From positions 62,001 through 126,000 of the forward strand of contig NC_009012.1 in NCBI RefSeq assembly GCF_000015865.1: a stretch of 64,000 nt of DNA. Direction: 5' to 3'. Shown piece by piece: positions 46,653 to 48,665 of this stretch. The position numbers and the translations under genes are program-made. The stretch is from Acetivibrio thermocellus ATCC 27405 (GTDB taxonomy: Bacteria > Bacillota > Clostridia > Acetivibrionales > Acetivibrionaceae). The notes under the pieces are model-generated. The model had not been told where the DNA came from, did not search any database, and saw nothing but the letters and a program-made list of their open reading frames with translations. Positions within the stretch are counted from its first letter, which is position 1, and every line of letters begins with the position of its first letter.

Positions 46653-47042
46653 ATGGGAGTAATGGATTATCTTAGGAAAAGAAAAATTGAAAAGAAAAGA
46701 GCCGCAAGAAAGAAAGCCGTAAAGAACGCAGCAATAGGCGCAGGATTGGGAGCTGCTGTTGGTGTGACAGCAGGAATATTGTTGGCACCTAAATCAGGAA
46801 AAGAAACAAGAGAGGATATTGCCAGAAATGCCAAAAAGGCAACCGAAGCAGTATCCGAAAACACAAAAAAAGCCGTTGACAAGGTATCTGAAACTTCCAA
46901 AAAGGCTGTGGATACAATTAGAACAACCATAAATGAAGCAAAAGCGAAAATAGCGGAAAGAAAAGCCGCCAAAGCCAGGAAAGAAGCGGCCGCAACCGAG
47001 GAAGTTGAGGATGGCGGCGAGAGCACTGAGGTTAAAGAATAA
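46653..47042 (+). CDS. YtxH domain protein
   Basis: The 129-residue protein has a basic start, a short Gly/Ala hydrophobic segment (about 24-45, AIGAGLGAAVGVTAGILLAP), the YtxH signature KSGKETREDI and a Lys/Ala/Glu-rich helical tail with heptad-like repeats (EAVSENTKKAVDKVSETSKK). YtxH-like proteins are small membrane-associated stress proteins of Firmicutes. TAGGAGG precedes the ATG. It sits upstream of a DUF948 protein, a pairing often seen, although a strong terminator separates the two here. Confidence 0.85.
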   Translation: MGVMDYLRKRKIEKKRAARKKAVKNAAIGAGLGAAVGVTAGILLAPKSGKETREDIARNAKKATEAVSENTKKAVDKVSETSKKAVDTIRTTINEAKAKIAERKAAKARKEAAATEEVEDGGESTEVKE

Positions 47043-47085
47043 AAATGAATAAAGTTTGAACTTTGAAATATATTTGAAATTTAAT

Positions 47086-47125
47086 ACAAAGAAAAAACAA
47101 ATTTTAAAATTTGTTTTTTCTTTGT
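47086..47125. terminator. 40-base perfect palindrome, terminator after the YtxH gene
   Basis: The sequence is self-complementary over its full length (arms ACAAAGAAAAAACAAATTTT and its complement), with no loop, and lies between the YtxH and DUF948 genes. T's and A's on both sides allow it to act in either direction. Confidence 0.75.
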
Positions 47126-47204
47126 ATGATATTTAATTTACAAATGAGAAATATATAAGTCGGGAAGGGCAATGCCCCCGGGCTTATGAAAAGGGGGGAC
47201 GCAT

Positions 47205-47588
47205 GTGTCGGTAACAATTTCCTATGACTTGGCCAATTTTATTATGTATACTTTGGGCGCTGTTTTAATAATAGTTGCCGTTATTACTTTGCTTAATGTT
47301 AATAGATTTGTAAAAAGATTGGACAAGCTTGTGGAAAAGAATGAGGAAAATTTCAACAAGACGGCAAACACCATTCCTGAAATTGCGAAAAACGTAAATG
47401 AAGTAACAATAGGAGTCAAACAGAACGTGGATAAAGTCGGAGAAGCCATTGACGCAGTTGAAGACTCTGTTTGTGATAGTATATTGAACTTGCTTGAAGG
47501 AACGGAAGGACTATTTGATTTTATAAGCATAGTGGGTGAAGTGATCAAAGCTTTGTTAAAAAGGATAACCCTTGGAAAGGGGAAGTAA
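47205..47588 (+). CDS. DUF948 domain membrane protein
   Basis: The 127-residue protein has one N-terminal membrane helix (about 12-30) and a long helical region of DUF948 type (about 31-115, VNRFVKRLDKLVEKNEENFN and VNEVTIGVKQNVDKVGEAID). DUF948 proteins often sit beside YtxH proteins and are linked to general stress in Firmicutes; function is not known. The start is a GTG behind AAGGGGGG; the nearby ATG two bases earlier is out of frame. The leader between the palindrome and the start is unusually G-rich. Confidence 0.85.
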   Translation: MSVTISYDLANFIMYTLGAVLIIVAVITLLNVNRFVKRLDKLVEKNEENFNKTANTIPEIAKNVNEVTIGVKQNVDKVGEAIDAVEDSVCDSILNLLEGTEGLFDFISIVGEVIKALLKRITLGKGK

Positions 47589-47609
47589 TAACTGGAACTT
47601 ATAAATAAC

Positions 47610-47642
47610 AAAGGAGAGCTTTATCGCTCTCCTTTAATTTTT
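47610..47642 (+). terminator. Terminator after the DUF948 gene
   Basis: AAAGGAGAGC and GCTCTCCTTT form a 10-bp stem with TTTATC loop, then AATTTTT. It can also serve the convergent zinc-ribbon gene. Confidence 0.8.
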
Positions 47643-47658
47643 CATGAGTAGAAGAATC

Positions 47659-47865
47659 TTACCATCTATCGCCGGAGTTTCTTCCAAATCCTCTGTTTGA
47701 TCCGCTAAAACCGTTGTTCCTTCTTTGCTGTTTTCTTGCCTGTCTGCAGGCGGGACACCTTTGAGGTTCGTTTTGAAACCCTTTTTCCAGGTAAAAAGCC
47801 TGTTCACCTTCCGAAAACACGAATTCAGCGTTGCAATCTTTGCAGGTTAAAATTTTATCTGCCAC
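47659..47865 (-). CDS. Small zinc-ribbon protein
   Basis: The 68-residue protein has two CxxC pairs (CKDCNAEF and CPACRQARK) about 20 residues apart, forming a zinc ribbon of the zf_trcl type, and a Gly/Arg/Asn-rich tail with FSGSNRGFGRNSGDRW, like RNA-binding RGG tails. The start is a GTG. The AAGGAGG Shine-Dalgarno is 8 bases upstream and lies inside a perfect 17-bp hairpin (see the regulatory entry), suggesting translation is switched by RNA structure. It probably binds nucleic acid; the role is unknown. Confidence 0.8.
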   Translation of the reverse strand: MADKILTCKDCNAEFVFSEGEQAFYLEKGFQNEPQRCPACRQARKQQRRNNGFSGSNRGFGRNSGDRW

Positions 47866-47874
47866 TTTCCAGAC

Positions 47875-47937
47875 CTCCTTAATAATTTGGATTTAACTTA
47901 TTCGAGACTGCACATATTTCTCCAAATTATTAAGGAG
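47875..47937 (-). promoter_or_regulatory. 17-bp leader hairpin sequestering the Shine-Dalgarno of the zinc-ribbon gene
   Basis: Arms 47875-47891 and 47921-47937 are exact inverted complements with a 29-base loop. On the minus strand the 3' arm ends in TTAAGGAG, the Shine-Dalgarno of the GTG start at 47865. There is no T-run on either side, so it is not a terminator. The base pairing would block ribosome binding until opened, as in RNA thermometers or cold-shock leaders. Confidence 0.65.
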
Positions 47938-48149
47938 AAAATGAGTCATGAATCCAATTAAATCCCTTAATATGTTGATTATATCACAAATTTTTTCCAT
48001 AATCAATATATTATTATTTGAAAAAGATTACGTATAATCAAAAAATTCTTTTAACTCAAAGCATTATATAAAAAGCTAACAATTATTATGAAATTGTCAT
48101 AAAAATGTTATAGGAGGTTTTACAGTTTGGATATGAGAGGGTAAGAAAG

Positions 48150-48665
48150 ATGGATAACGGCAAAAAAGCAGTTCTGCCGTATAACAGGGTTAAAGCGGTG
48201 GAGTATGCGCACAAATGGGCTTTTGGGCGAAATCCGAAATATTTTAATTTTGACAAACTTGGCGGCGATTGTACGAATTTTGCATCACAGGTTTTGTTTG
48301 CCGGAAGCAATGTAATGAATTACACTCCCGTATATGGCTGGTATTATATAGATGCAAACAGAAGGTCTCCTTCATGGACGGGAGTAAACTACTTGTACAA
48401 TTTTCTGGTAAACAACAAAGGCCCGGGACCTTATGCAGAGGAAACAGATGTCAAAGACATACAGCCCGGAGATATAATCCAGCTGTCGTTCGGCGGAGCA
48501 CCTCATTTTGATCATTCGCCGGTTGTGGTGCAGGTGGGTTCCCCTGCAAGTCTTCGGAACATACTTGTGGCAGCCCATACGTACGACAGGGATTATTATC
48601 CTCTTACAAACTATAACTGGGTTAACATCAGATTTATACATATATTGGGTGTGAGGACACAATAA
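48150..48665 (+). CDS. Amidase-like protein (Amidase_6 type)
   Basis: The 171-residue protein has the NlpC/P60-like Amidase_6 layout: catalytic Cys in GGDCTNFASQVLFAG (about 31-45), QPGDIIQL, HFDHSPVVVQVG with the His (about 117-128) and AAHTYDRDYYPLTNY. No signal peptide or membrane segment is present, in contrast to the usual secreted family members, so it may act inside the cell or on a substrate in the spore or mother cell. The start follows GAGAGGG. It may be a degenerate or specialised wall-peptide hydrolase; substrate unknown. Confidence 0.8.
   Translation: MDNGKKAVLPYNRVKAVEYAHKWAFGRNPKYFNFDKLGGDCTNFASQVLFAGSNVMNYTPVYGWYYIDANRRSPSWTGVNYLYNFLVNNKGPGPYAEETDVKDIQPGDIIQLSFGGAPHFDHSPVVVQVGSPASLRNILVAAHTYDRDYYPLTNYNWVNIRFIHILGVRTQ

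Follow-up and report, generated by a model that had tools for sequence, protein, structure and literature searches.

Two conserved, mutually exclusive folds in the leader of a clostridial zinc-ribbon gene, probably a translational on/off switch

We analysed a stretch of 64,000 nucleotides (the window) from Acetivibrio thermocellus ATCC 27405, whose genome consists of one contig of 3,843,301 bases. A minus-strand gene in the window encodes a small protein of the zf_Tbcl family (Table 1), which is the one match to that family at E <= 1e-6 in this genome among the matches listed. Acetivibrio species are among the closest named matches of the protein, and its matches to solved structures were weak (ZFAT, E 0.0037; 33 kDa chaperonin, E 0.88). 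The product has a tail rich in Gly, Arg and Asn, and Gly/Arg/Asn-rich tails likewise follow the zinc domain in an alignment of 16 zf_Tbcl proteins.

The gene is flanked by two plus-strand genes, a DUF948 gene (a sub-threshold match; 47205-47588) and an Amidase_6 gene (48150-48665). The DUF948-like gene and a YtxH-like gene (PF12732), together at 46653-47588 of the window, are convergent to the zf_Tbcl gene, and relatives of both lie near it in L003, L004, L006, L009, L012 and L023; in Bacillus, genes of these two kinds are general-stress partners. The Amidase_6 gene, whose relatives adjoin the zf_Tbcl gene in L003-L007, L009, L012 and L023, is divergent from the leader, so the two promoters probably share the intergenic stretch. 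A promoter-like TTGATT-17-TATAAT sequence places the predicted transcript start near 47971, upstream of both of the folds described below, and the leader is roughly 105 nt long. In a scan of the window, no terminator-like site was found between this promoter and the start codon, and a transcription attenuator was rejected.

Table 1. Features of the zf_Tbcl gene and its leader, in window coordinates
Feature	Position	Strand	Basis or remark
zf_Tbcl (treble clef / zinc-ribbon) gene	47659..47865	-	68 aa, GTG start; PF13451, E 1.3e-24
Terminator-like hairpin 3' of the zf_Tbcl gene	47609..47636	-	terminator scan
Predicted promoter, -35 TTGATT	48001..48006	-	consensus scan; 10/12 matches including the -10; 17-nt spacer
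Predicted promoter, -10 TATAAT	47978..47983	-	same consensus scan; transcription start expected about 47970-47973
Shine-Dalgarno AAGGAGG	47874..47880	-	sequence
SD-sequestering stem (fold A), 5' arm CTCCTTAATAATTTGGA	47921..47937	-	sequence, shuffles, covariation
SD-sequestering stem (fold A), 3' arm TCCAAATTATTAAGGAG	47875..47891	-	sequence, shuffles, covariation
SD-free hairpin (fold B), P1a 5' strand GGATTTAATT	47956..47965	-	pairs with 47889-47898; folding, covariation
P1a 3' strand AGTTAAATCC	47889..47898	-	final 3 bases common to the sequestering arm
P1b 5' strand ATTC	47950..47953	-	pairs with 47900-47903; covariation matched by 0/400 null alignments
P1b 3' strand GAAT	47900..47903	-	folding
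P2 5' strand GACT	47944..47947	-	pairs with 47906-47909; covariation matched by 2/400 null alignments
P2 3' strand AGTC	47906..47909	-	folding
P3 5' strand CATTTTCTCC	47934..47943	-	partner bases within 47911-47923; CTCC doubles as the anti-SD
P3 3' side	47911..47923	-	GGAGAAA 47923-47917 plus GTG 47913-47911; folding
Apical loop TTAATAATTT of the SD-free hairpin	47924..47933	-	complementary to 47879-47888 before the SD; possible toehold

The initial annotation had described a perfect 17-bp stem with a 29-base loop in this leader, with AAGGAG in its 3' arm, the GTG start 8 bases beyond and no T-run to make it a terminator, and we could confirm each of these points. A script check found 17 of 17 pairs enclosing a 29-nt loop (47920-47892). 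The 3' arm (47891-47875) contains AAGGAG, the Shine-Dalgarno sequence (SD) as a whole being AAGGAGG (47880-47874), and the GTG codon begins at 47865, 8 nt after it. No T-run lies 3' of the stem, and the scan called no terminator-like site there. The best duplex of the SD region, which takes in a few pairs beyond the 17, reached -27.3 kcal/mol (z -5.1), a value that no shuffle matched when the upstream stretch was dinucleotide-shuffled 100 times; the whole-strand fold of 47980-47800 also includes the stem (z -2.2, equalled by 2 of 200 shuffles).

We then sought the zf_Tbcl protein in 148 related genomes, at least 105 of which have a match at E <= 1e-6, and assembled a set of 70 leaders, namely the window's own and 69 among the best-scoring others. 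In 66 of these 70 leaders, no more than 5 of 100 dinucleotide shuffles paired as well with the SD region as the true upstream leader did, which argues that the stem is more than a chance pairing. A second run put the sequestering duplex at p <= 0.05 in 67 of the 70. From 80 loci in named records we took a further 46 unique leaders, leaving out 34 that duplicated earlier leaders or had too short an upstream stretch. The duplex reached p <= 0.05 in 37 of the 46, among them leaders from Clostridium and Caloramator species and from uncultured Clostridia, and failed to do so in 9 of these distant leaders, including those of the Clostridium species L173 and L194. The stem is also kept in Acetivibrio mesophilus, a mesophile by name (L004, identical to L156), at -23.6 kcal/mol in L004.

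When folding was run from the predicted start to shortly past the start codon, the minimum-energy structure was a second fold, a long irregular hairpin (47965-47889) built from P1a, P1b, P2 and P3 that leaves the SD outside. Both folds need the same CTCC (47937-47934), GGA (47923-47921) and TCC (47891-47889), so they are mutually exclusive. The hairpin claimed in the initial annotation is real as a stem, and the single buried site that it implied gives way to one of two competing folds. By eye, nearly all 70 leaders share one layout: a GATTTAAT-type or GGATT-type block, GAC, CTCCTT, TTGGAG, GTC, AATCC, AAGGAGG and the start codon. In one family of leaders (L011, L014, L016, L026, L038, L046 and L056), as we read the sequences, the GGA of fold A and the possible GGAG (or GAGG) of fold B appear to be separate, non-overlapping copies. 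Of the 65 leaders assessed out of the 70, 43 have a TATAAT-like site before the P1 strand, at a varying distance of 8-34 nt upstream, against 26 expected from shuffles.

Covariance models were built for the SD-free hairpin (R1) and for the stem (R2), and their matches were aligned (56 leaders at E <= 0.0003 and 67 leaders at E <= 0.001, respectively). These cut-offs were chosen because weaker matches mix with reverse-strand matches, and L021 was left out of the R2 search because its leader is split by an insertion. In the R1 alignment, 14 of the 17 P1/P2 pairs had changed on both sides, none of 500 column shuffles matched the covariation score, and slid partners scored far lower than the true P1/P2 pairing. 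In the R2 alignment, 13 of the 18 pairs of the sequestering helix had changed on both sides, and again no shuffle of 500 scored as high. We also used a tree-aware null, which preserves the tree and the number of changes per column, with 400 null alignments; it replaced an IQ-TREE AliSim null, under which no single pair was significant, because AliSim redraws column rates. Neither the stem nor the SD-free hairpin was matched by any of the 400 null alignments, and slid versions were ordinary. The middle of the sequestering helix covaries as well (0/400, in the alignment fitted to that helix). In P3, complementarity is kept and covariation is absent under the tree-aware null because its bases are fixed as the anti-SD. 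A comparison of orthologous leaders, which the initial annotation had proposed, thus finds both folds keeping their pairing through compensatory changes above the tree-aware null. The sequestering pairing is conserved in the homologues, and the predicted promoter (48006-47978) lies upstream of the whole leader, not at a place that would start transcription inside the loop.

Since a fitted alignment leans toward its own structure, each fold was also scored on the alignment of the other. On the stem-fitted alignment, 88.3% of P1 pairing was kept, with a score above 500 of 500 shuffles; 7 of 14 pairs were doubly changed, a count matched by 78 of 500 shuffles, and under the tree-aware null the double changes were matched by 9 and the pairing kept by none of 400 alignments. 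The flanks of the stem showed no covariation above chance on the hairpin-fitted alignment because the SD and anti-SD hardly vary. A MAFFT alignment of 28 leaders, fitted to neither fold, gave the hairpin 6 doubly changed pairs of 21, a count matched by 90 of 500 shuffles, along with a covariation score exceeding all 500; on the same unfitted alignment RNAalifold called nine pairs, all in the sequestering stem and none doubly changed. Covariation of the stem appears only once the helix is aligned as such. Both folds are rebuilt from quite different bases in L069, L177, L183, L190 and L160. From these comparisons we take both folds to be real, the stem being the more certain of the two.

A search of 100 related genomes with R1 (E <= 0.01) found 68 leaders, spread over 46 of them. 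All 68 belong to zf_Tbcl genes, and none of the matches lies on a gene of another kind. Sixty-six adjoin a zf_Tbcl gene from the protein search, and the remaining two are both in one genome, G041: L102 adjoins a zf_Tbcl gene cut by a contig end, and the other match lies 128 nt upstream of its zf_Tbcl gene because a 111-bp repeat has split the leader. That element (L103:349-459, G041:C279:1848-1958), with inverted ends ACTACAGCGGCAATT...AATTGCCGCTACAGT, sits between the hairpin and the SD; it has 41 matches in G041, itself included, and is MITE-like on that account. It amounts to a natural disruption of the putative switch.

In 58 genomes of the same order (G000-G057), an R1 match accompanies 63 of 83 zf_Tbcl genes found at E <= 7.5e-20; those of the other 20 that were fetched often show a like leader by eye. 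At least 15 weaker zf_Tbcl matches in these genomes lie outside the 83-gene count, and none of them has an R1 match. Several copies within a genome can carry the leader (among the matches listed, 3 of 3 zf_Tbcl matches in G007, G015 and G023 and 4 of 5 in G008), and some genomes, for example in family f4, have zf_Tbcl copies with no R1 match. Farther afield, R1 matched (E <= 0.01) in 3 of 42 genomes of the same class and another order, and 199 genomes sampled from the phylum as a whole gave a single match at E <= 0.001, the window's own copy. More divergent Clostridium leaders surfaced through the protein search and the per-sequence tests.

Twelve further zf_Tbcl relatives were also inspected. 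Ten have a second Cys cluster, L210 (62 aa) does not, and L211 (68 aa) is like the window's protein. Within the 70 nt before the first possible start, inspection by eye showed no such leader outside L211, which is a weak negative given how short that stretch is and how uncertain the true starts are. L202-L209, L212 and L213 form a second zf_Tbcl subfamily, with frames of 89-175 aa and an extra Cys cluster around [VI]PFxPxxD[RK]PVYC. A zf_Tbcl relative in a Brevinematales assembly (L201) has a different hairpin-like pair, GTTTAGCCAT...ATGGCTAAC, shortly before the SD.

The two folds of the window's leader are closely balanced in energy. Ensemble energies computed from the predicted start were -33.6 kcal/mol with the stem enforced and -34.9 kcal/mol with the hairpin enforced at 37 C, and -17.6 and -16.9 kcal/mol, respectively, at 60 C; from 20 to 65 C the two stay within about 1.5 kcal/mol of each other and cross near 55 C. 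A stricter definition, in which the SD is barred from all pairing in fold B, gives the stem a lead of 1.4 kcal/mol at 37 C, and a longer 3' stretch together with a start further upstream brings the stem into the minimum-energy structure. As modelled, the balance is fine and context-dependent. With the SD barred from pairing in B, equilibrium at 37 C favours the closed form A in 58 of 67 leaders, including the window's, so B may be only transient. When the growing chain was folded from 47973, B had the lowest energy at every listed length between nt 88 and nt 124, where the listing ends, at both 37 and 60 C. A heuristic path put the barrier to nested refolding from B to A at 18 kcal/mol at 60 C and 32 kcal/mol at 37 C.

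The leader thus combines two mutually exclusive pairings, each conserved in its own right and one of them SD-blocking, with alignment-free support weaker for the SD-free fold. Because both folds are kept across many Clostridia, the zf_Tbcl leader is probably an undescribed on/off switch. Our model, to which we give a probability of about 0.6, is a two-state translational switch that is born with its SD open and can be closed by invasion through the apical loop, with the product as the first-guess trigger. In state B, the P1a-P1b-P2-P3 hairpin (47965-47889) would fold immediately on transcription, while the SD is still to be made; AAGGAGG would then be left open and the zinc-finger protein made. 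In state A, the anti-SD strand (CTCC, apical loop and GGA) would quit the hairpin and form the 17-bp stem with the SD, presumably stopping initiation. We infer that B precedes A in the cell. Transcription completes the SD-free hairpin before it reaches the linker and SD, which points to a leader that is born open and closed by invasion under some control. The apical loop and the pre-SD linker are single-stranded in B and mutually complementary, so invasion could start there, and a non-nested invasion of this kind could sidestep the nested refolding barrier.

As a first guess at the trigger, the product would itself act on the leader, in the manner of an RNA-binding or chaperone-like protein, giving negative feedback. 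We single it out because no other gene family appears among the matches and because its Gly/Arg/Asn-rich tail, on our assumption, resembles RNA-binding tails; autoregulation, which the initial annotation had also suggested, stays possible because all 68 leaders belong to one gene family. More speculatively, and with considerable doubt, these leaders might form a widespread clostridial class of kinetically controlled, toehold-type switches in which the zinc-finger/RGG-like product is an RNA chaperone that speeds closure and so senses its own level.

An alternative that we consider unlikely is a ligand-binding riboswitch with a pseudoknot, in which P1-P3 stay folded, the apical loop pairs with the pre-SD linker and one form is stabilised by a ligand, either a small molecule or an ion such as zinc. 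Such a structure would fit the covariation of the loop-linker complementarity, seen in an alignment fitted to that helix, alongside the conservation of P1-P3, and it would fit the invariance of GATTTAAT and TTAAATC in 28 of 28 leaders, a subset chosen by those motifs. The conserved helix, however, takes in the SD and CTCC, beyond what a loop-linker pseudoknot needs. Riboswitches often serve several genes of one pathway, whereas this leader accompanies one gene family only (68 of 68 matches), which points to no particular ligand or pathway, and matches no Rfam class.

It is also improbable, in our judgement, that only the SD-blocking stem matters, as a means of low constitutive translation or of 5'-end protection, with the P1 repeat kept for some other purpose such as a protein site on DNA. 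The alignment-free shuffles lean toward such a reading, since P1 reached p <= 0.05 in only 26 of the 70 leaders (and in 13 of the 46 further ones) compared with 67 of 70 for the stem. Against it, P1a, P1b and P2 covary above the tree-aware null, as in the compensatory P1 change from GATTTAA:TTAAATC to GAATTAA:TTAATTC (L066, L069).

Two further readings make temperature the signal. The predicted unpaired fraction of the SD in the window starts at 0.31 (20 C), climbs to 0.45 (37 C), peaks near 45 C at 0.48 and then drops to 0.19 (60 C) and 0.10 (65 C), a non-monotonic course. A cold-on switch like the cspA leader, with the SD-free hairpin winning in the cold and the SD-closed stem at growth temperature (which we take to be near 60 C for this organism), would agree with the drop between 45 and 60 C and with the crossing of the window's folds near 55 C, and the open state would last longer in the cold, where refolding is slow. 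A cspA-type cold thermosensor has two conformers, the one formed in the cold being more open at the SD. Two conformers are present here and exposure falls from 45 to 65 C, yet it is also low at 20 C and so is not highest in the cold. Nor is the direction conserved: of 67 leaders, 23 show a drop in the A-minus-B energy difference between 20 and 50 C, a group without the window's leader, and 25, this time including it, show a drop between 37 and 65 C. With no common direction over the 67 leaders, we rejected a cold thermometer as a conserved rule and hold a cold-on switch to be improbable; judging from the modelled energies, temperature is a possible trigger in the window's species, with no conserved direction.

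In heat RNA thermometers of the ROSE and FourU type, warming within the physiological range opens a helix that blocks the SD. The initial annotation had suggested that the leader might be such a thermometer, the 17-bp stem melting on heating to free the SD, and the SD does lie in a stem in a presumed thermophile, with predicted exposure rising slightly from 20 to 45 C. The stem is perfect, however, with no internal mismatches, and the predicted SD closes in the upper range instead of opening with physiological warming; the stem is also retained in A. mesophilus, the 67 leaders share no temperature trend, and the conserved 5' hairpin would be ignored. On the window's energies from 20 to 65 C and the 67-leader comparison we rejected this reading, which we regard as very improbable. 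What stands of the regulatory proposal, on the computed evidence, is that access to the SD looks regulated and that the pairing is conserved; the simple thermometer is not supported.

We found no description of this RNA or of its protein family. The best Rfam match at the leader, in a search of window positions 47500-48200, scored 21 bits against a threshold of 73, and Rfam 15 called only tRNA-Sec and an intron fragment in 20 loci, neither at the leader. A literature search found no papers on the PF13451 / zf-trcl protein family and nothing on RNA motifs related to zinc; matches for zinc-ribbon together with C. thermocellum were unrelated by title, and the word "zinc" is absent from the main texts, as distinct from the supplements, of PMC2864571, PMC6429828, PMC8632094 and PMC11109978. 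Within main texts and Rfam 15 the leader RNA is apparently undescribed, and it may figure as an unnamed candidate in the supplements of an earlier survey. It adds an apparently undescribed conserved leader RNA with two covarying, mutually exclusive folds, tied to one protein family on which we found no paper. It also offers a direct handle on small zinc-finger proteins: if the product binds the leader, it is an RNA-binding regulator, and if it does not, the leader would point to another signal. With its predicted function, the leader would be a compact natural translational switch for clostridial genetics.

Several known systems resemble the zf_Tbcl leader. Translational riboswitches that sequester the SD use mutually exclusive helices, one of which is the anti-SD, and the same arrangement is seen here; unlike them, the zf_Tbcl leader serves a single gene family and has no Rfam match. 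In metastable or delayed-folding leaders such as that of the MS2 maturation gene, a structure formed early at the 5' end vies with an SD-blocking one that folds later, and the two folds of the zf_Tbcl leader can be likened to these. A type I toxin mRNA (PMC6733600) is another such case. Unlike them, the zf_Tbcl leader belongs to a chromosomal zinc-finger gene. Autoregulatory ribosomal-protein leaders, a category named in the main text of PMC11109978, likewise join one RNA to one gene family under control in cis, although the zf_Tbcl product is not a ribosomal protein by Pfam. The conformations of the E. coli cspA mRNA thermosensor (PMC9947658) give ribosomes unequal access, as the two folds of the zf_Tbcl leader would, and its product, a small RNA-binding protein, acts on its own mRNA, as the zf_Tbcl product may. 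The zf_Tbcl leader differs from it in lineage, in the lack of a conserved temperature trend and apparently in fold. Set beside these systems, the zf_Tbcl leader is a new example, with a fold of its own, of a known kind, the two-state translational leader.
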